A stretch of DNA of 64,000 nucleotides, taken from positions 33,481,073-33,545,072 of the forward strand of contig OU744447.1 of assembly GCA_916610825.1 (NCBI GenBank). The letters run 5' to 3'. Shown piece by piece: positions 7,510-44,200 of the stretch (positions are counted from its first letter, which is position 1; each line of letters begins with the position of its first letter). The notes beneath the pieces are model-generated. The model was not told where the DNA came from. It made no database searches and saw only the letters and a program-made list of their open reading frames with translations. Source of the stretch: Haliclystus octoradiatus. Taxonomy: Eukaryota > Cnidaria > Staurozoa > Stauromedusae > Haliclystidae. The position numbers and the translations under genes are program-made.

Positions 7510-10500
7510 GTATTCTATATTGTTGACTGAATTCAGAAAAACATTTTCCCTGTTTATTAAGCAAAGAATAACGCTATCACAATTGATACCAATGTTCTGA
7601 AAATTATATCAACTGCAAACCAGCTCTTGTATCTCATTATATATAAACTATATTGGTTTTCTTAGACCTAGAAATATGTATTGGGCAGTTCCTAGAAAAC
7701 AGTGAATTGATCTGAACTCTTCCAGTGGATGTGCTAAGTTTACACCTTTTAAACTTCATCACTGAACATAGTTGTATACATCATGGCATAGTTACCTTGT
7801 GCAGTATACTTCCTAGGCTAGTTTCAAACTACAAAATTTCGTATGTCAGCTTTTTAACGTCATGCTTTCATAGTAGGAAGGGTATATTCTTGCCATAGTA
7901 AAATCTAAATTTCCTTATGTCTCGAATGAGTAATATTTAACGTCTACTTATCGGAGTTGAGGTGATTATCGGCTTATAATGACCGGGACTTTAAAAACTC
8001 GCATCCTGAGGATTTAATTTTTTGTTATTCCTTTGAACCGACTGGAGCACACTCCGTGAAAATATCCATATTGATAACACAGTCAGTTATTGATGATTAA
8101 GACAGTCTTAAAAACACAATAACAAACAATGATACTATTTATTATCTCAATGTATCATTGAACTGCTTCTAATATAAAACTCAATTGCAATACCATCCGC
8201 GTCTTTCCACGATAAACTTTAATAAACATGGATCGATACTGATTTAGATTTGATTGCTGTTTGGCCAATCGAATTGATCTATATTTAGTATTGATATCTT
8301 GATCAATGACTAAATACTTCCACCGAAAATTAACAATGATTCTGCTGCCATATACTTACAAAGACCGCCGCTATATGACGCCACGATTAAACACAATCAC
8401 AAGAAGACGAATTCTAGAAGACGAAACCCAATCACAAGTCTGTTTTCTTTAATGTCGATTTGTTTTATGGTTCATTTGAATTTCAACAAACATAAAAGTG
8501 TTTCTTTTTACTCCAGCGTTTCTTGAAAATTTCCCTACTGAAACTATTGACATAACATTTTGTTATATTATGATCAAATCATATTTTTTATTATCTATAG
8601 GTCACACCGTCCTGGCTGTTCGTAAGAATGCAGCCCCTGATCCAAGATCACAAGAAATATTTCCAAGTAATGTTATTTTACCTTTACTTCACGATTAACC
8701 CTAGTGCAAAATTTTATATAGAAAACAATAGCTGAGATTATGTTAATAGTTGTGAATATGCAAAAATAGAACCAAAAGTATTGTTTAACAATTTTGGAGA
8801 TAAATTTTCTTCAGAAAATTCATTTTTAATTCGAGTCGCATCCAATTTCTCTTGTAAATAATGCCTCATTAATTACAAAGTTACGCAAAGTAAAATAATT
8901 TGCTCCATGTTAACGATGAAACTATTGAAGTCTAAATATGTACCATCTGAAGCTATGGATAATTAAGTTTGAAAATATTACACGATAGTTTTAAATGCAT
9001 CATGTAAAAAGTGTTAAGATATTAATTCCATTAATATTCTTGATTACTGATGAAACCATTGCCAAGCTCCAGTCTTTTCAAAGTATTTTTGGATGAGTTT
9101 CTTTATCCTCTTTTTTCAAAAATTCGTATTATTATTATGAATTACATAGATGCAAATAAAGACAAAGCTGATATCTACGTAATGATGGATTGCTCAAGTC
9201 CTCTTACAACAACGCACGCAAATTTCTTCAAGACAACTTATTTACAAGTAATCCATGATATTATTGTGTCTGTTATGCGTGATAACATGGAACGATACAT
9301 CAATATCTACCCATATGGTGCCAACACAGGACTTGTAAGTAACATCAGCAATAATTTTGACACTTTCACGTAATAACTTTAGCGTATAAAACTAGTTTTG
9401 GTTTCACCATCTGAAGATCGCAAATTAACGTGTGGAACTCAGAATGACGGTGAATGATTTTGCATCATCTTTGTTTCCTATTGTACATCATAGTGTAGAA
9501 GATGAGCAAATATCGCTTAGAAAATATACAGGACGCTAGAACGCCAAATACAAGGGAATCCATCCAAGCAGATCTATCAATTTTCTGGTATGTTCAAAAG
9601 TCTGTATGAATGCAAAAGCTTAAGAGCAAGGACGTTTAGAAAATATTCAAATGAAGAAATTGAGCTGCAAACACTCATTATACATAATGAAATTATTTAG
9701 TTGTTAGGATATGAGTAATATATTATTTGGTTTAATTGGCTCAATGACTGTAACTTGGTGACTATAGACTACAGTACAATATAGTGTAGAAAATGAGCAC
9801 TTTAGCGCAAGAGTTAAGAAATTACATTACAGTGCTTCATTTGTAATTCAATAATGACCATTTCTAGACAAATGGTACCAATACTTTTGTTAAGCAAGAG
9901 CAGCAGAATCTCTGTAATATTCAAATAGATTGACTAAGATGTGACAGCATTGTAGCCTTGGTTTACTGATATATGTATAACACTGTGCATTGATTTCAAT
10001 TTGTTAAATACAACTGATTTATTTTCAATTATTTTGATACTCTGATTCTTGGTATTTTCAGAGCAGAGAAAACTACTATATCCCATCTGACATCAAAAAC
10101 TTTCTACAAAAAGAATTTCCATCATATCAAGATCGAAACATTGGAGCAGGAATGAATATTGTTTCTATTGATAATCAGAACGAGGCAAGATTTGGATTTG
10201 ATATTGGTAGAGTTCTTTTACTGATAACAACTGGTCCAACTACTGAGAAAAACAAGAAAAAAATCACAGAAATGAAACAGAAACTAACAAGAAGAGGTGT
10301 TATTGTCATTGCGCTTGGACTAATTGGTCAAGCCAGACCAAATGATTTATCATTCTTGGCAACAGGATCAGATTGGGTTATATCGAGTCATTATAAAGAT
10401 TTTAGTTCATGGAAAGGTCAAATTTCGAAAAAAATTGAAGAAGGTTTGTAAAACTGATAACAGCAAAACTGCAGTCATACAGAACAGAAATCGTAATTGA

Positions 10501-21105: not shown

Positions 21106-21210
21106 TCATAAATAATAGAATAGAATGTAATCATATATTTAAACAATAGAAACGCTTCCTTAGGTCATGTATATACTTGAGCACACCGTAATGATTTTTC
21201 ATTCAATAAA

Positions 21211-21250
21211 CCGTCTGAAGAGCGTCTTTACGCGAAACTCAGAGTAACGG
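21211..21250 (+). ncRNA. Hammerhead ribozyme (type I-like) in Penelope terminal repeat
   Basis: CCGT pairs with ACGG (21247-21250) as stem I. The core is CTGAAGA (21215-21221, CUGANGA). Stem II is GCGT-CTTT-ACGC (21222-21233, perfect). GAAA (21234-21237) is followed by a short stem III ACU-CAG-AGU. The cleavage triplet is GTA, with the predicted cut after 21246. All invariant core bases are present. PLEs are known to carry hammerheads in their terminal repeats, and this one sits between two PLE remnants. Confidence 0.75.
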
Positions 21251-21319
21251 AGTAAACTGGTGATCTTTGATCTACTATTTACATACATTATATGTATATA
21301 TATGCTCTAAACGAGTATA

Positions 21320-21490
21320 TAAAAACGAGTATCTGTTATGTGATGATTGTTTCATAACGTGAAGCTTGAAGTTACAACAAAATAATGTGTCTATCTCATT
21401 ATTATCATTATTATTTACACTCTGCTATTCGCTAGCATTGAGCCCTATCCAATTGCCAATATTAAGTTTTAATATTTCTAATATTATAAT
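21320..21490 (+). mobile_element. Penelope terminal repeat with decayed hammerhead
   Basis: GAGTATCTGTTATGTGATGA...GTGAAGCTTGAAGTTACAAC matches the hammerhead arm at 36291-36340, but the core is mutated (TGTGATGA, GAAG). The tail TTATTTACACTCTGCTATTC...ATTGAGCCCTATCC matches the - strand of 36110-36185. So this copy and the palindromes in gene C belong to one family. Confidence 0.65.
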
Positions 21491-21559
21491 TTGTCGTACT
21501 TGTTTATTTGTCTGATGATTCCGTAAGCATGAAACATTTTAGTAACAATTATGAATGTG

Positions 21560-21840
21560 TAGTCTTTGTCTCCTTTTATTATAATATTAATACAGCAAAT
21601 ATTCAACAAGCATGCAACTTTCTAACTATGTTTGGAACCTTAAAAACAACCACATTGCTTACCGAATTAAATGAACGTCCCTTTCAACGGCAAACGCTTA
21701 CAGTAACAAAACAAAGAAAAGTCAACTATGTATTGCAGTAAAGTTCCATTAGCGCAAAAGAAATTTATTGAACGCTATATAGATCAGAACTTATATCTAA
21801 ATATGTAGACATGAAAACAAATTCTACTTAGCCAATTATA
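21560..21840 (+). mobile_element. Penelope-like element remnant 2 (GIY-YIG end)
   Basis: A + frame reads YVWNLKNNHIAYRIKW and then YSNKTKKSQLC, the conserved tail of PLE GIY-YIG endonucleases. ACAGTAACAAAAC is shared with remnant 1 (20935 on). It is a second partial copy in the same orientation, so the pair resembles a tandem PLE arrangement with the hammerhead-bearing repeat in the middle. Confidence 0.65.
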
Positions 21841-32200: not shown

Positions 32201-35200
32201 AAGACAGATACAAAAAATACAGATAGTAGATCGCAAGAAAATAAAAATAATTATTCCTGTTAAACATGTGTATCTATTTCGCCTTCGATTTTAGATAAAA
32301 ACCACAACATCTAGTCGACAACATCTAGAAGCATATATTTGAACAAATTTGTTGCAATGAATTCGTAAAAATTCTTCTAATGAAACTGTTCTTGAATAAC
32401 TCATGGGATTAATCAATGGGGGTTCCTAGAGGGTGAAATTCGCGGATCACGTTGGAATTTTATCAAAATTCCCGTTCGACGTATGTCAAAAACGCTCAAT
32501 TCCCGTATGTTGAATTCACTCGTTTGATTTTCCCAAGGCTATTTTAGCCTAAAAAGGCAAATTATTCATTCCATAGAAAATTATATTATTGTTTTGTATT
32601 TTTAGAACTTTTTCACGCAGATAAATTGATTTACATATCTTTTTGAAAAACATACAGATAAAAATTATATAAAACCTTTAAGATATGTTGAGTTCTCGTT
32701 TCGCAGGACAATTCTTGACAAATTCCTGCCTCACGCTATTAAAAAGGGTGATTCTCGGTTCACGTTTGATAGAAATTCCCCTCTCATTGATCGATTTATG
32801 GATAAATAATAAAACAATTATCGGACGAGATGGAGCCTGACATTGAGATTTATTAGGCCTCTGCGATTTTATCGTCCCCAACCAGATGATGTTCTGTCAG
32901 ATAATTCTCAATCTCGTTTCTCATTTCGTTCGATAAGTGCTTGTGACAATTGAATAATTTATAAACAATCTAACAATCAGATTGTTGGAGCCTGGATTCG
33001 TATTTTAATATTTCCTTATGTTTTTATTCCAACAGGAGTACATCTCATTTTACACGCCAGATTTTGTAGCTATTAAAAATACTATTGATAATCTAGTAAA
33101 CCCTAATTATCCTAAAGCAGAGGTTTCAGTTGGTTTAACAAAGGCAATTGAAATATGGCGTGGAATACAAATCACTACCGAGCGGAAACGTATTCTTTTA
33201 TTGATAACCACAGGAGATGCTGCTAATATGGTCTTAGTTAAAGAGCAGATAGCAATATTGATCAGCATATCTGTTAGGGTTGAATGCATTGGTATAGAAG
33301 GTGGAAATGAGCTTGGAGAGTATATCAAAACACAAGGGGGCTCATTTTGGTATTACACTAAAGATTTGCTAATTGAAGCTGACGCTTTTGCTCTCAAATT
33401 ATACGAAGGTAATCTCCATTGAAGACACTGAAACAAAATCATAAATAATAGTAAACAAAATGAGTCTTATGTGCACCTGATATCAAAAATATTAAAACAG
33501 ATTCGGAAAGCTGCTGTTAAAGGAGCAAGATTGTTGAAAAGGATTTTTTTTACCAGGATTTATTTCGGTCCATTTCGTTTTTAAGAGATCCCGCCGGGGC
33601 AAAAATATCTCTCGTTTGTCCTGATCAAATTCAAAAAGTTGAAGATAACTGTCCCTATGTACAGCATTCATGATTCGTGTGGACATGAACAAATGGACAA
33701 AGAATTAAAAGAACTCTCTTACTTCTAATCTTAGAAAGCAAACACCACAATATTCGTTTACTTGAAGACTGACTAAATCGCCAGGGAGTGTCGCGCCCCC
33801 AATACCCCCATACTAGGGACGGCCCTCAGTGAGGTCATATAATTGATTTGAAATTGTGAAATTGAATAGAAAAAACTGAGATATTTATATTTACATAGGT
33901 CATGTAGATCTTATATCAGTATATTTATGTTATTCAGACCTCCATGAGCCGTCAGCTCATGCATTATTCTCATTGTGGCATCCCTACCATTTATGCTTTT
34001 TTAGAGAATTTCACCCAACACACACCCGACTTATTCGATGGTGTTCTGTTTACAACCTCCTACTCGAGAGATATTTTCTCTCGTGTCACTATTGTAAGCA
34101 ATTTCAGGGAGGATGCCTAATATACAAATCAAAACATATTTTGTTTAACCGGCAATACTTTCATGCCTGTACTAGAAATCCATATTGGACACGACGTTAA
34201 GATTTGAAATCCATAATTAAAATTTGATTTGAACCCTAAATCCACCAGCGACAAAAGCCAACTTGAACTTCTTCCTCATAACTACAGAATTCCTTATTTT
34301 TTTCCCATATGCCATGCAATGAGCTTGCCAGTATACAAAATTTGAAGCCCCGGTCAAATGACTTTTTTTATTTCGCCTACATTGATAGGATTCAATTGAA
34401 TTCATTTTCATCAACAGCGATGATTAGATATTTTGAAGGTTGGTGACGAATCAATCGAAGGTTTTAATTCTGAGTCGAGCTACGTTATTGTCGACCAATC
34501 AGAAGACGGCTCATAGTTCACAAATCATATGAATACTGGCGAAATAAATTTGGCTGGGGCTTTACACGTTGAGCATCAAAAACATTCATTCAAAGCAAGG
34601 AAAATGGGCTTTGAAAAGGATTCTTCTTCAAAATAGGGATTTACAGCCACAGCTCTAAACCAAATCACATCTCAATGAAGTATTAAGGCTTTACTTTACA
34701 TTCAGTAAATTTGTATCTTAGCATTCATATCAATATTTGCTTCAACCATAATTTATTTTTACTCTTCTTCTCATTTATAGAGATTAAAGTGGCACCACGT
34801 AAGTGTAATTTGATCAATCCAAACAAATATAATCATTTAAGTTCATTTATTCCATTCATAGGGGACCCTCTTCATATAGCAGATTAATGATGAATAGAAT
34901 TTGTTGATTCTGTTGTTAGGTTTCAAATGCTACAACAACTCAGAATTAGCCATGCACGATATTGCTGCATCACATCTAAAATACCTATCCTACCTCTATT
35001 GCAACACTTCAATAAAGTTATATCCAACTAGTCAATTTGCTATAGGTTAAACACCTATATTTGTAGATAATCTATCTTATGCATATAGTACATCGGTAGC
35101 TCCGAGTGCTAGAGTGTCCGCTCGACGTGTGGGAGACTCTGGCATCGTCGTCGGTACACACAGTCAATATTCTTTGTATCTCTTTGTAAATTTGCAAATT

Positions 35201-38200
35201 GTAATGAACAGCAGCTGTACTTATGAGGTGACTTTCAATCACAATTGCTAATCATTTTATGTTGATTTTAAAAGTGGAAATCAAACGTCAAAACCAAAAG
35301 ATAATAAAAGGATTCCAAGAAATTTATTGCTTTATCCCAAGAATTTCTAAACGATCCTCATAGCATCAAATATGCACTCAGTACTAATTGATTATCTATT
35401 TATATTTGTAATCACAATTATCTTGTTGATTAAACCTGAAAGTTATCAAGTTCAAATAAGCCTTATTTATTTTCTATTTTTAGCACCAACAACCAAACCA
35501 ACAACAGCACCAAGTGAGTTAAGAATTCTTTACATTATATTAGAGCCTACGTTTCCTTAGTGAGCTTTATATTACTTTTAAACTTAATATTTGTTCGTAT
35601 AGTATATAGCCCGTGTATAGCACTGAGAAATGTTATAAAAGTGTGGCTGTTTTGTAACAGTAGAGAGAATGTACCATCTTTATAGGTCAAAATCAAATAT
35701 TCATCATTGAAATACCCATGAAGACCCTGACTAAACGTTTTAAGTTTGTCTATAGATACATTATGCAAAATAAGATAATTATTCCCTTTATGCTTCATCT
35801 ACGGAAACAACAAATAAATGATCAAGTTGACTGAAAGGCATGTAAATATATAATTATAAATAAATAAATCAAAGACTACACATTTTGGTAGTGTAACTTA
35901 AATTTTCACGCTTTATCACGATCATCAGACAGTTAAAACTGTTTTGAATGTCTGATGATTGCAATAAAGCGTGAAACTTTTAAGTTACAGTATCAAAATG
36001 TGTAGTGTTTGACTTTATTTATTTTTATTTACAGCTCTGTCAACAGACATCGAGCACTGTTTTACTGCTATTGCTTAATATCTAATAATATAATTACAAA
36101 TATGTTAATTAATAATATCAAAACCTAGCATTGGCAAATGGATAGTGCTCAATATTAGTGAATAGCAGAGCGTAAATAATGATAACAATGAGAAGGTTAA
36201 GAAAGACACATTCTTTGGTTGTAACTCCAAGTTTCACGTCATTGAACGATCATCAGACAACAAATACTGTAAAAGAGTATTTGAAGACGAGTATTTGTTG
36301 TCTGATGATGGTTTCATAACATGAAACTTGGAGTTACAACCAAAGAATATGTCTTTCTTGACCTTATTATTATTAGTATTATAATTACAAATACTCATTC
36401 ATTTTGTTTAAAATGTGAATATTTTTTCTCTCACCTAGCTACTCCGGTGACACCAGTAGTGCCAGATGGAGGTTTGTTAAAATTATACCTTATTTTCAGT
36501 GTTAAACAAACAGAAATACAGTATAAGGTATATATGAGGTCGATTAAGACAAGCTAATATATCTGTTTGGATCTCACAGATTTCGATCAATATAATACAT
36601 ACAGCATCCGTGTGCTTTTCATTATTACTATTGGCTAGTAATAGTCACTGAAAAAATGAAATTAATAGCTTGATAGTTTTCCGTTGCATAACTTGAAAAT
36701 TGAGGTAAAATGGATAGATTCCTGATTAATGTTACTCCTAGTTTAGAAAATATAACAAAGGCGACAGTGCAGTCTCCAACATAACTTTCAATAATGTTTC
36801 TGCTTTATAATCTTGTCACATAGGTATTTCTCGCTTGATTCACTCATTTTATCAATGACTAAATTGTTTTGTTGAACATTCTGTATAAATGTATATAACT
36901 CGTTAAGCCTGGAAACACGTCAGGCACCCAATGTTTATAAATTTAAAATATACATCTCCAATAAAAATCTATCTAAATACTTAATTATGTAAAACTATTT
37001 AATCATTTGTTAATTTATGTTAAGTTACTCTGTGTGTAATTAACATTTATATGCTATTATGCAGACATAAACAAATCATTCATTCATTTATTCAATATAG
37101 GTTGTGATCGGCCTGTAGATATCGTCTTTCTGATTGACAAATCAGCCTCAATTACACACCCCAATTTTGAACTTATTAAGAAGTTTCTGGAAGGTGTTGT
37201 AGGAAAGTTTCCAATTCATCCAGCTAATGCAAGGATTGGATTAATTACGTTTGGTAAATATACATCTGTAAGTATAATTAATAATTCAAACTTCACATCA
37301 CTTGTACTAAATGTTTTAATGTTTTAATATTATAGCTTTTCGTTTTCTCAAGAGCCACATAAGCAATTTGAACAATTATTCGAATGTAATATTATTCCTG
37401 GCTGCTGTCACTGTCCAAGATACAAAGTACTCTCTTTCTCTTTGGGCTTTCGGTAATCATTGTACTGGTATTAGAACAAGATGGTGACGAAGTGGAGATA
37501 ATTAAATTAAATGTTCCTCTAGTAATACTGTTCCCTAATATGAAGGTTGTGGCATGCGAAAATGTTATGTGAAAGTCAGTTTTATTTGAAACGATTCAAA
37601 ACCTTATAATAAACAAGGTGTTCGATCTTTTCTAGCTTTGAAAACAGGAGATTCCTTGGTAACGCAAATTTATTTATTTCATTTATTTTGTCAAAATTGA
37701 CAGGCAAAGCAACGGAGAGTCACATAATATGATCTCTCACTAAAATGTAGCCTAGTTACAACTAATGTTAATAAAAAATAATATAAATTTAAGCAATAAT
37801 TTTAAGCAAGTTTTATGTGTGAAATAATATCAACTTTATGGAATATGGCTTTTATGAGTGATGGAAAACCCGCTGAGAATATAATGGTCACATAATAAGT
37901 ATATACATGTAAACTTTTTCACGTAAAATCCTCTTTCAACTCTGGCTTTCATCGTGTGAACACTTATTCTGTAACACTAGTGGGATGACATAGGGTCACT
38001 CTTTCTATTCATCTATGTATGCAATTCACATCCTCTCACTGTCAATCGGCCCACCAATTGATACAAAACTTTTATTGAGTGTCATGGTACTTCTTCAAAG
38101 AAACGTTAATTTGAAGACAATGCATTTAATGGTTTACAGGCAACAGCCTAATCTGATAATTGCTGACATTTTTTCACCTCCTTAGTACATCTAAGAACTA

Positions 38201-41200
38201 GCCACACATAAAAAGCTAAAATTGAGATCATTCTTCTAGTATAACATAGAAACTAATTTTACTTTATTTTATTGTATTTATTTCTATCTATAATAATTTT
38301 GGGCATCAATGGGAAACTCACAACTATGTGATTGGGACATTGTGATAGGCGAAAACGTAAAAAAAATACAACTTTGCATACTGCAATCATTTCTCGTATA
38401 TCTCTATCTTGTTCAGATAATTTTATGCTCTTGTTAACTATTTCCTCTCTGTCACCCATAATTCAATATCATTCAAACGGGAATAAATATCATTCGGCGA
38501 GGTCAAAAGGGTAAGCACTCTTACTCCAGATACCCATATCTGTGTCTCAAATCATCAACGGATCATCTGAACATCAAATCAGTGCAATCTTGTAAAGGAA
38601 GTAGGGTGGTCCAAACGAAATTGCATAACAAAAAGCTATGACGTAATGGTCCCGCTGTCAGTTGCAAATCAAAGCCATTCTGACATGAAATGTTCTAAAC
38701 TTTCTAGATGCAGAGTCGCATCTGAAATCAGTAATAAGGATTTATCATCGCTGCCTTGTTGAAAATAGGTAGCCATCAGAGTAGTATGGGTTGCTTGATA
38801 GGATGGTCCAGCATGTGTTGATTTAGTTTGCTATTTTATCAGCGATATATACTTTGATAAGAAGACAAGCGATAGGATAGACGCAATTTTTCGACATTTT
38901 GTCATTATACTAATATGACATTTTCAAGCGAAAAAATTTAAATGAATGTTTGGATGTTTTAACTTGGCTAATTTACAATATGTGATAACAATTTTCAATG
39001 CAATGTGATAAAATTTAACAAACAATAGGCTATACCAATTATAAAGAAAATGTGTTAATGATGTAAAACAATACAGTTACGCGGCAAACAATTTAGAATT
39101 GATTGAATCGGATTGCGAATTGAGTGTCGGCATAATCCGCTTCAACGCATACTCTAAATTAGCCCACTTAAACATATAAATATTCTTTTATTTTAGGTAT
39201 CTATCCTTTAATTTTATTCGCTTGAAAATGTCATATCAGTATTGTTATAAAGCTTAAAAGACTATTTAATAAACAAGAATCAATAGTTGTATATATTGTA
39301 AAAACTAAATATCTCTAAAGAATTACATGTGCCACCAGTCTTATTGAGTAGCCTCCTTTTCATTATTAGTATTCATACTACAACAAAGGCACATAGATTG
39401 CTAACCTTACAACAAGTATAAAGACGAAACGTAGCAAAAATACGTTTATTCTCTTGCGTGACTTCTTATCAAACTTTTTAAGCCAAACATATTTTATTAA
39501 ACATAATATGCATTACATAACACTCTATTTCAGACAATATTCAACCTCCAGAAGTATATGACTGCCAGTGGTGTCGTTAATCGTATTCAGGGCCTTCAAT
39601 ATCAAGGAGAAACAGACACTATAATGGCAGTAGCAATGACAGATGCACTCGCTATGTTTCAGAACTCTCCAAGATCATTGCAACTTGAAAATTATTCAAG
39701 ACTGATAATGCTATTGGGTGATGGTAAATCACATACAGAACCAGATCGTATTGCTACAGATGCAGCTGCCAAATCAATCAAATCCCAACAATACCAAATC
39801 GTTACAATCGGAATTGGAGATGTAAATTCTGCAAACTTGCAAAAATGGGCCAGTAAACCTGAATTCTATGTACATGAAACCGATTATCAAAAATTGCAAT
39901 CGGAATTCGATAAACTTCAGGGCATTTTATGCGATGGTAAGTGTAAACTGAACCCTTTATGTCAGCACTGTATAATGTGTATGCATTCTTGTTATCTCAT
40001 TTTGGATATGGTAGAATGAAATCCTCTAATCGCAAAAGACACGCAAGGCAATGATAATATAATTCAGCAAGAATCAAATCGCTATACTAATATAATTAAG
40101 TAAGAATCAAAAAAATTCTGTGCAAGAAACCCACAACAGTAAATCAATAATACTTTTCGAAAAATCGCATCTTGCAACCATCAGTTGCATTATTATTGTT
40201 GGTCTGCTAGGTCACCTTCAAATTATTCTTTGAACACATTTAATAGGGCTTTTTCATATAAGCCATGTTGGTGTTCCATAACAATAGATTGAAATATATA
40301 TTGGGGTCACAATCGTTTCAAAATACACCACCAGGGTCATCAATCTTTTCTGCAATTAATTCTCAGGAGACTCATTGGTGCAAGGTCCGACAAAAAGTTC
40401 AACCTTCTGGAATCCTAGGGGCATTTAAACTTTTTCTTCTGAATTTTCTTGTTGAGGTTTGACCAGAAAATCATTAAAAACATCAATTTTCTTCTGAATT
40501 TTGTCTAGCCTTCCGCGATCTAGGATCCCAGGATCCCCACTTTTGTTAGACCCTGCATTGGTGTACCAGTGAAAAAGCTCTTATAGATTTATTAATAGAT
40601 AGAGATAAATTTAACTTGACATTAGACCTTTTTGATCGAAGAAATTTCTATCGTATTGAAGAATCTGTCTGTTAATCCATTCAAATAACTAGTTAGGGAC
40701 TTTTCAATCAAAGTACAATCTATATACCAAATGTATTTTTTATAATTCGAAAAAATTGTGGCTATTTCATTGAAAGTTGATTTACCGCATCAAAATCCAT
40801 CAAAGTTTACACGGGTATATATATTTGTATATATGCTATGTGTATGCTATATATGCTGCTATGTATGTCTCAATTGAGCATGCGCAATTTTGAGCACTAT
40901 CGACTCGGGATGTGTCTATACTATTTGCATTATGCATTGCCCACTACTTCGGTAGTTTGAGCACTCTGGTATGGCACAGATGTTTTTCATGTGATGAATT
41001 TTTTCACCACATTTATAACTCATCTTGACTTAGGTGTATACTGAAGTCAGTTCCTTGTTCGCTCACTGAGCACTACTGATGAAGGCTAATGGCCAGAAAC
41101 ATGTACTTGTCTGCTGCTATATGTGTATATATATATGTATTTGAAACTTTTCAGAAGAAAGAATTTGCAAAATAATGTACATACTAAAGGCAATAATTAC

Positions 41201-44200
41201 ACTTACTCTTTTGGAGATAATCAGATCAAAATAAATGTTTACGTAGTGAAATGCTGCTATATTCGAACTATTTACAATATCCTCAGGTAGATTGTTCCAT
41301 TGAGGTATAACACGGTTGAAAAAGTAATTATGTCTAGCATTGGTCTTTGTAGTATTAACATAGCATTTGGATTTATGTCCACGAGTACTTGTTGATTGTT
41401 TCAGTGTTACATCTAATGGAATTTCTAGATCAACTTCATCATAAAATATTTGATAAAATAAACTAAGTTCTAGATATTTTCTTCGAGATTCCAAAGATAA
41501 TAGATCAAGGCTAACTATACGATCTGAATAGGATGTTTTTGTATCTCGTAGACAGCAAGCAAAAACCTTTTTAGTAAATCTACGTTGAACTTTCTCAATG
41601 ATGGTAATGTCCTTTGATAATAAGGAGAAAACACTGGTGACGCATACTCTATAGGATAGGACGAATATAAGTTGTAAAAGCATTGATGACATGGCCAGGA
41701 TCATTCCATTTGAATGCTTTTAACACATAGAACGATACACAATAAGCTTTCTTGATTATTGATTTACAATGATGAAATGCTTTCAAATCAGAAAAACTGT
41801 GAACTCCGAGATGTATTAAGCCTACGGCCTAATTAAAGTTTTATCATGAGAGGTTCCGCAATATTTGGACACTGGTAAAATGAAAGTTCATGATCTTAAA
41901 AATGTTTTACTACATGCTGCTAAAGGGAGAGAAGCAACCTCTTTAAGGAAGCCGTAGGCTATCTCGTCCCAGGCAACGTCTGGTAAGGGTGGATTTAAGT
42001 TATTGAATGGCAATGCTTAGTATTAGTATATGTATTTTAGTGTCAAAAGACAAATAAATATATAAATAAATACCTGTATACCTAACCGTAATATTTAAAT
42101 AGACACTATATACAGTTGTTAGGCATCAACAAGATGAATTAATTAGAAAATGAATGTGACCACATGTCTATTTATTGACTATATTACGTGAAAATTGATT
42201 CGCTTTTTACTCTGGTGAAAAGTCTTTTTATCTTCATTTACATATCAATGCTGTTTTTGAAATCACATTTTTTCATCATAGAGCTTACTAATATTGGAAT
42301 GCTTGTATCACATTTCTGATTCCGTGTTTTTAATTTATTTTCATTCATTATTATTTATCCGACATGTGCTACTAATCGTATATCATTATTATTACTACGT
42401 GATCACTGCGATCACAAAATAGTGATTTCCCAAATATTGTGTTTGGCATATTATTACTGTAATATAGGTATATAATATTGAAACTTTTTAGCCATTAGAT
42501 ATAACTACCAATAAATTGAATAAGAATAATTGCGTTAGAAGGAAACGACAGCCTAATCAATGATGTGCATGACAACTGCATGTATTGTAGTTTTTACCCG
42601 AGTTTTTATAAATCGTTATACATTGCATTTGTGAATTAACTTGTATTGTGAATTTTGTAGCTGTACTCGTCTATTTTCGATTTTTCTTATAGCTGCTGCA
42701 AGCACACCAAGTACAACGCCAACCAAGCCCACAACCACGCCAACAACCACACCAACAACAACACCAACAACTACACCAACAACCACACCAACAACAACAC
42801 CAACAACTACACCAACTACCACCCCAACAACCACGCCAACTACTACACCAACGACTACACCAACAACCACACCGACAACAACACCAACAACCACACCAAC
42901 CACCACACCAACTACCACACCAACAACAACACCAACAACCACACCAACAACCACACCTACAACCACACCAACTACCACACCAACAACAACACCAACAACC
43001 ACACCAACCACCACACCAACTACCACACCAACAACAACACCAACAACAACACCTACTACCACACCAACAACGCCGCCAACCCCATCACCAGAACCACCTA
43101 CAGGTGAGAATCTGAGAAGCATTGTATTATGTAATATAGCATTATGAAACAGTGGACACAAATTTTGCCTCTCATAAAGTTCATCCTCCGTGAGAGCAAA
43201 TAGAACAACAAATCTACGTTTCCCTTTCTCCAGCTCATCAGATTGTTCTTAATGTTTCTGTCCGATTTTTTAAATCTTTCTCTGCACACCTTCTTCATAA
43301 ATCCAAAAATTATATATTGTACAATTTCAATGGAGATAAAAATATATTCAAAAATTCCCCGCGATGGATACCCTTTATTAATTATATACAATTCCCGATC
43401 TGTAATAATAGCTTGGGTGAGTAACCTAGCGCTACAGTACTATAGAACTTTCATTAGAAAGGAATCAAGATTCAGAAAGAAAACAGACAATGATGGCGGT
43501 AAGTTCATAAGCAATCCTGGTGTACACATGCAAAAGAAAGAGTGATGAAGGAAGTTACTTTTTAGGAAAACTAATTTTTGCTAACTGTTGCCTCTCAGTG
43601 AAAACCAGAAGAGATTTTCACTAGGGTATAATTTCTCTCAATACTGAGTATCAGAACTGAAGGATTTGATAAGAGCAAAACATGTTAAACGCGTATTGAT
43701 TCAGAAGATCATTTTAAGATTTGATCTATCGATTTGATCCTTGTGTTACAGCTATATCTGCTAATAATAATTCAATGCACATTCGCATCGATTGCTTATA
43801 ATACATCAATATTAGATATGAACTACAATCTTTTACATTGAATTTTGGAGATAAGGATGATTGATGTGAATATATCAGCTCCTTTACTCTAAGATTTGAA
43901 CGTGCTAATGGGGTGCTAAAAGGGTGCCGAAAAAGGAAACCTATATATAGCACAGTAATAGCACCTTTATTAGTACCCTAATGAGCACCTTGATCAGCAC
44001 CATTTTAGCACCCGGTCATAAAGAAGAGCTTTTGCTCATATTAGAACTGTTGGAAATATATTTCGCATTAGCACCGCAATTATTGTAAACCACCTCAACC
44101 AAACATATCAAATCAAACAAATTGCATAAATCGTATTATTTTTTCAGAAAATTTAATTCTACATTCTATGCATTGTTACATCATATATTCAGAATAACTC

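Follow-up and report, generated by a model that had tools for sequence, protein, structure and literature searches.

Opposite-strand hammerhead motifs in a 64-kb animal DNA window as probable remnants of Penelope-like element insertions

Background

Positions 35820-36420 of the 64-kb window, by which we mean the whole stretch of DNA analysed here, contain two palindromes (P1 and P2), each of which had been read in a first-pass annotation as a plus- and a minus-strand hammerhead facing away from a common centre. Do these hammerheads represent a ribozyme device that serves both strands, or can their arrangement be traced to the way in which the sequence was inserted? The window belongs to a 262-Mb genome of 33 contigs. 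Penelope-like elements (PLEs) are known to leave inverted pairs of pseudo-LTRs (pLTRs) (PMC3846280), and the role of the hammerheads in PLEs is, according to a review, unknown (PMC7761336). The palindromes are flanked by open frames at 33009-33422 and 39507-40019 (both on the plus strand), which by eye have the look of VWA-type exons and are compatible with an intron.

Results and discussion

Hammerhead motifs in the palindromes

The entire window was scanned, with filters off, with a covariance model of 20 related motifs, all from outside the window; its score reflects membership of a homologous family and is not independent proof of catalysis. Searching both strands, we found four motifs on alternating strands, well above chance expectation, and the outward-facing pair described earlier for each palindrome was thus recovered. 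In P1, the motif at 35889-35934 on the minus strand (43.4 bits, E 1.6e-10; predicted cleavage 35895/35894) has mismatches in stems I and III, and the motif at 35946-35992 on the plus strand (42.9 bits, E 2.2e-10; predicted cleavage 35986/35987) passes a strict stem-by-stem pattern, the covariance-model alignment showing stems II and III intact and the outermost stem I pair alone lost. In P2, the minus-strand motif at 36217-36262 (54.9 bits, E 4.9e-14; predicted cleavage 36223/36222) also passes the strict pattern and has every modelled stem paired in the same alignment, and the plus-strand motif at 36296-36341 (48.6 bits, E 4e-12; predicted cleavage 36335/36336) has a mismatch in stem II. Clear damage to stems beyond the outermost pair is therefore present in two of the four motifs, 35889-35934(-) and 36296-36341(+). 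Read by eye, the model places cleavage at 35986/35987 and 36335/36336, the two points that had been predicted before.

The strict pattern has three sites in the window, two of them in the palindromes, versus two matches in 200 dinucleotide shuffles of the window; a relaxed pattern has six sites versus 53 across 200 such shuffles. At the gathering score Rfam gave no match in the window, and in E-value mode HH9 alone appeared (15.2 bits, E 1.1), at one of the four motifs; no curated Rfam hammerhead model reached its cut-off (best HH9, 21.7 bits against a cut-off of 52). Both palindromes also matched microRNA precursors in Rfam (40.2 bits at best, cut-off 84), which we dismissed as general hairpin similarity.

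Structure and covariation of the hammerhead family

The features that define a hammerhead (the core CUGANGA..GAA, three stems and a UH cleavage site) are present at the level of the family; within the window, core and three stems are found in 36217-36262(-) and, bar the outermost stem I pair, in 35946-35992(+). The strict pattern is passed by 96 motifs of the window and the scanned loci, many of which are copies of each other. The nucleotide 5' of the cleavage site is U in 59, A in 36 and C in one of them, and the base of stem II is G-C in four. Across related copies, changes on both sides of a pair were seen at six of ten pairs, with a covariation score of 0.388; shuffles gave 0.222, and sliding gave no more than 0.147. 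The changes are confined to stems I and II, and stem III hardly varies. As the rows were preselected for pairing, the paired percentage (98%) is inflated, but chance selection is an unlikely source of the covariation given the low rate of the strict pattern in shuffles. The compensatory stem pairing noted in the first-pass annotation is thus clear at family level, whereas in the palindromes themselves pairing is kept only partly, with lesions in two of four motifs.

The pLTR hammerheads are of the minimal type I. Minimal type I hammerheads of PLEs are reportedly the subject of Cervera 2014 and Lunse 2016. Our motifs resemble those described for PLEs in their short stem III, their location in pLTRs and their tandem units (PMC7761336, PMC6155905), and differ from them in that a 3-bp stem III is kept and that 90 of the 96 motifs have U.U as the basal pair of stem II. 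U.U at this position has also been reported for the axolotl hammerhead HHR_Amex2 (PMC7229834).

It had further been supposed that a transcript could fold into one long hairpin, and this agrees with the folding of the whole inserts, which gave two single long hairpins, one of -94.7 kcal/mol (z -13.8) and the other of -118.2 kcal/mol (z -16.2). Such a hairpin of a whole-insert transcript would bury the hammerhead cores. When hammerheads were folded in isolation (n=8), only that of a tandem PLE-like locus (L085) stood out (z -2.29); for the four motifs of the palindromes z ranged from -0.94 to +1.24, and their folding was not superior to that of shuffles.

Genomic abundance and pair geometry

The strict core pattern has 928 + 937 = 1865 exact matches genome-wide, and its backward control has no match in the genome. 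Pair geometry was analysed for the first 100 of the 1865 matches, which reach as far as 16.7 Mb on contig C1, with a pattern that overlooks decayed partners. These contain 30 pairs of neighbouring cores at most 4 kb apart, 25 of which are head-to-head, four same-strand and one tail-to-tail; 1000 strand shuffles gave on average 7.5 and at most 14 head-to-head pairs. Every one of the 16 pairs within 150 nt is head-to-head. Tight palindromes account for 32 of the 100 places, and head-to-head pairs of up to 4 kb for 50. DNA searches with the two palindromes returned 993 and 702 first-look candidates, of which 40 each were scored, and the palindrome alignments comprise two P1 subfamilies (P1a, P1b) and one P2 family. 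At one place (L016, L017, L026; C2:34.37 Mb) P1 palindromes are arrayed in (TAA)n; one copy there has a reversed centre, and an arm variant is shared, which looks like exchange of sequence between arms.

Hammerheads on both strands are thus the layout of a high-copy repeat that is frequent in this genome, and with 1865 strict cores and 16 tight head-to-head pairs in the first 100 listed places the arrangement loses the unusual status it had been given. This bears on the reading of the motifs as a working pair of bistrand ribozymes that is retained in a host intron for cleavage or regulation. Recognisable cores on both strands would suit such a pair, and bistrand hammerheads exist in viroid-like RNAs (PMC6466107), but stems are damaged in two of the four motifs, the single hairpin of the whole insert hides the cores, the isolated motifs do not fold better than shuffles and the layout is that of an abundant repeat, so that we consider this function highly improbable. 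The presence of hammerheads on both strands in an animal locus is not in itself a sign of a viroid-like or regulatory device.

Link to a putative Penelope-like element

Searching for the Pfam GIY-YIG domain gave 27 matches, one of which (L074) lies inside a complex locus (L083) that also carries P1-like hammerheads. Of 1165 candidates obtained with a protein query from a frame of this locus, 150 were scored, and many of these contain 721-740-aa open frames, arranged head to tail in tandem or as inverted pairs. In L085 the tandem unit is 2519 bp long and its ends are 182 bp and identical; head-to-tail tandem units with pseudo-LTRs, here with a 2519-bp period, are a trait of PLEs. At four loci (L084-L087), whose pLTRs are 74-83% identical to P1, a hammerhead follows a GIY-YIG-like frame end and precedes an RT-like frame start on the same strand, in L085 at a distance of about 200 nt 5' of the first ATG. 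At L088 the pLTR hammerhead is located 3' of the frame end in sense orientation, with only the frame end present before the pLTR, and at L089 the main hammerhead match is weak (24.4 bits) and on the strand opposite to the frame.

By eye, the PLE-like frame contains the motifs FDIENFYPSI, YRDD and YIGLT..R...H. Using hhalign it was aligned in register with a Pfam-positive PLE-like protein, at an E-value of 0.0029 but a probability of 10.6%, and at E 0.048 for the GIY-YIG part; the Pfam-positive PLE-like frame of L076 is distantly related, its best BLASTP piece having an E-value of 0.05. Searches of Pfam and PDB gave no match for the frame. An AlphaFold2 model of the RT-like frame had a mean pLDDT of 34.1 and was set aside, and a profile search of PDB with the alignment used for it gave no match up to E 10. 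Motifs, the weak in-register profile match, tandem architecture and the pLTR are the basis on which we assigned the frame to a putative PLE. Among the 721-740-aa PLE-like units many frames look intact (e.g. C4:29214693-29220207 and C2:32621999-32630297), and the units are recently active by appearance.

Two insertions at one target

In the window, an inverted-repeat scan detected 93-nt arms that are 87% complementary at 36176-36268/36290-36382 and, within 35852-36029, inverted repeats with arms of 51 nt (80%) and 40 nt (85%). The 14-mer TATAATTA[CT]AAATA has three sites on the plus strand of the whole window, starting at 35849, 36089 and 36380, and none on the minus strand; the first copy differs at one position from the other two. 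These sites delimit two inserts, the limits of P1 being fixed by its flanking duplications. P1 (35863-36088) consists of a tail-less pLTR arm (-) on the left and a tailed pLTR (+) on the right, head to head, and P2 (36103-36379) of a tailed pLTR (-) on the left and a tail-less pLTR arm (+) on the right, again head to head. The left copy of the P1 target duplication (35849-35862, plus strand) is identical to the other two copies at 13 of 14 positions, the middle one (36089-36102, plus strand) is common to both inserts as the right copy of P1 and the left copy of P2, and the third (36380-36393, plus strand) is the right copy of P2. As one 14-mer recurs at these three positions and is absent elsewhere in the window, P1 and P2 are evidently two serial, separate insertions at one 14-bp target. 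The four alternating copies, taken earlier for an unusual bistrand set, are better described as two insertions of inverted pLTR pairs of a known type (PMC3846280) at this target.

Insertion layout in related copies

Arms and flanks of related copies were aligned in 45 rows, which stand for 44 distinct places (L001 and L031 are both P2 of the window; P1 of the window is not among the rows). One tailed and one tail-less arm were recognised by rule in 43 of the 45 rows and by eye in the remaining two, which the rule missed due to a chance extension (L039) and an alignment split by a deletion (L057); the same is seen for P1 of the window in the palindrome alignment. Inverted pLTRs with a tail on one arm only, as in these 45 rows, are a PLE trait. 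The tail-less arm ends at nearly one point throughout the 45 rows, mostly within -5 to +8 of the landmark. Flank repeats of at least 9 bp are present in 10 of 20 P2-type rows compared with 4.2% of mismatched flank pairs, and after collapsing copies of one place or duplication in 8 of 18, one of which is a simple repeat. Their lengths are 14 bp in the two rows of P2 of the window (L001, L031), 16 bp in L062, 19 bp in L061, 14 bp in L051 (missed by the rule) and 16 bp in L046, where the repeat overlaps the next insert.

Some relatives are longer. About 86 nt of upstream element sequence are found between the arms of L061 and about 300 nt between those of L062, and the inner ends differ. The stretch in L062, a P2 relative with a tail-less arm on one side and a tailed pLTR on the other, corresponds to the last ~54 codons of the PLE frame, through the stop, and that in L046, which belongs to another family, to the last ~60 codons. 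Since the arms of L062 and L046 still enclose the C-terminal end of the PLE frame, the palindromes are, judged from their sequences, extreme 5'-truncated PLE insertions, which were formed repeatedly in different families: an autonomous PLE family has its own pLTR in the identical palindrome form (L021), and this form is also found in diverged families (L003, L024, L032, L054). Centres and fillers vary in nearly all P2-type copies, and five P1a rows have the same perfect centre. In most tight palindromes the inner ends lie about 12-17 nt before the core, as if the 5' end of a template RNA were defined there, and the fillers comprise 0-32 nt.

Terminal inverted repeats, target duplications and high copy number are also what a foldback or MITE-like DNA transposon with chance hammerhead-like motifs would show. 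We rejected this origin, to which we assign next to no probability, because the arms are PLE pLTRs by sequence and have two fixed, unequal end points, and because the longer copies contain PLE coding sequence.

Formation of the palindromes

Homology to the PLE pLTR, the duplications, the asymmetry of the arms, covariation and the longer relatives with PLE coding sequence are the sequence basis on which we consider it likely that each palindrome is one PLE insertion cut down to two head-to-head pLTRs, only one of which has the 3' tail, between 14-bp target duplications. As the pLTR carries a minimal type I hammerhead and the pair is inverted, a hammerhead lies on each strand. Against this explanation, half of the P2-type rows are without a flank repeat of at least 9 bp, and the perfect centre common to five P1a rows is what inheritance of the palindrome would give. 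The assignment of the PLE frame from motifs and a weak profile match, with no hit in Pfam or PDB, also counts against it.

One possible mechanism is two-sided target-primed reverse transcription on the element RNA with head-to-head joining of the cDNAs, whose chances we put at even or slightly less. The PLE endonuclease would cut both target strands at an AT-rich site, and each target 3' end would prime reverse transcription at a defined place in the element RNA, one start being the end of the tail and the other a tail-less site about 71-79 nt downstream of the core start. Both cDNAs would then reach the 5' end of the RNA or stop early, and their ends would be joined. The role of the ribozyme would be to process tandem PLE transcripts, and the palindromic hammerhead would be a by-product, which its own antisense arm probably masks. 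The fixed outer ends, the duplications and the independent inner ends are all accounted for by two-sided priming, and a purified PLE protein has been reported to cut both strands of the target and to extend them from a pair of adjacent internal start sites matching the tail (PMC11167929). It offers no ready explanation for the strict one-tail rule, which counts against it: free choice of start sites predicts pairs with two tails or none, and neither was seen in the 45 rows.

With the same PLE identity, the 3' end of one strand might instead fold back and be copied, the copied arm stopping before the tail. Self-priming of this kind on antisense RNA was proposed in 2013 for bdelloid PLEs with palindromic inverted junctions (PMC3846280); it is in keeping with the often short palindrome centres and directly predicts that the arms of one element share private variants. 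Compared with shuffled partners, arms within an element indeed share more such variants in P1a (3 vs 0.32, p 0.0036) and in P2 (9 vs 3.45, p 0.0008), where a single column contributes five of the nine, and in P1b there is no excess (0 vs 0.27). These shared variants count against two-sided priming unless both RNAs have one source; no P1a/P1b hybrid was seen, which also counts against it. On the other hand, the near-constant end of the tail-less arm in the 45 rows suits a start site better than a stop, and L046 and L062 would require a fold-back over a few hundred nucleotides. We regard self-priming as a tenable but rather doubtful alternative, and that the footprint fits two-sided priming better than this published model may be new.

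Shared private variants are equally predicted by a palindromic source, that is, a palindromic master element that is transcribed and copied as a unit, with gene conversion keeping the arms alike. Some P1a and P1b copies have common centres, and in the (TAA)n array a centre and one arm were apparently exchanged between arms. Yet nearly every P2-type copy has a centre and filler of its own, and the layout recurs both in the diverged families (L003, L021, L024, L032, L054) and with PLE coding sequence inside, which makes copying from a master unlikely.

Relation to known elements

The insertions resemble those of the bdelloid PLEs Pen2a and Pen3a, which likewise have head-to-head inverted pLTRs with a palindromic junction, a tail on one of them and AT-rich targets (PMC3846280). 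Target duplications are 8-10 bp in the bdelloid cases cited there and 14-19 bp in the cases examined here, and many of our copies, in contrast to Pen2a and Pen3a, are without nearly all of the body and have a hammerhead in each arm. The Anolis element Poseidon (PAc) has, as here, a protein with RT and GIY-YIG parts, tandem units and a pLTR hammerhead, and its two internal RT start sites, AT-rich target and cutting and extension of both strands are further points of likeness (PMC11167929). The PAc hammerhead overlaps the ORF start, in contrast to that of L085, which precedes the first ATG, and the source text does not tie two-strand extension to inverted pLTRs (PMC11167929).

Hammerheads in PLE pLTRs and inverted pLTRs are thus already known separately. 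In the open literature searched, outside which key papers on PLE hammerheads lie, we found no description of palindromic hammerhead pairs, and we do not claim that they are absent from print. The genome provides a large series of insertions that have one asymmetric layout and target duplications and are truncated to various degrees, which makes the origin of the inverted ends of PLEs testable. If two-sided priming is true, inverted pLTR pairs are a direct product of the insertion reaction, and a single genome records a very large series of such junctions at every degree of truncation.

Metazoan retrozymes, too, are non-coding repeats with type I hammerheads, but they are direct repeats and P1 and P2 are inverted pairs (PMC7229834, PMC7761336). 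P1 and P2 thus lack the direct tandem hammerhead units of retrozymes; a direct arrangement is found at 21328-21585 (plus strand), where a related head-to-tail pLTR pair carries hammerheads at 21334-21379 (30.3 bits) and 21506-21550 (37.5 bits). It consists of a P2 copy at 21328-21487 (86% over 166 nt) and a P1b copy at 21503-21583 (78% over 83 nt), and the former substantiates the tie of the palindromes to a PLE repeat at 21320-21490 that had been proposed from the sequence.

Other hammerhead-like sequences in the window

At 41076 (plus strand), as well as at about 1460 and 1830 of L009 and about 1470 of L024, a repeat CTGATGA..GGC..GGCCAGAAACATGT is hammerhead-like in its core only; the copy at 41076 adjoins a frame at 41117-41719 (minus strand) that was named LINE-like by eye and has no Pfam match. 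A weak match to the hammerhead model lies at 9405-9452 (plus strand; 19.1 bits, E 0.0035). Shortly 5' of the direct pLTR pair, at 21209-21252 (plus strand), there is a hammerhead of 54.4 bits with G-C at the base of stem II, which belongs to a family common to L024 (1178) and L056 (3104).
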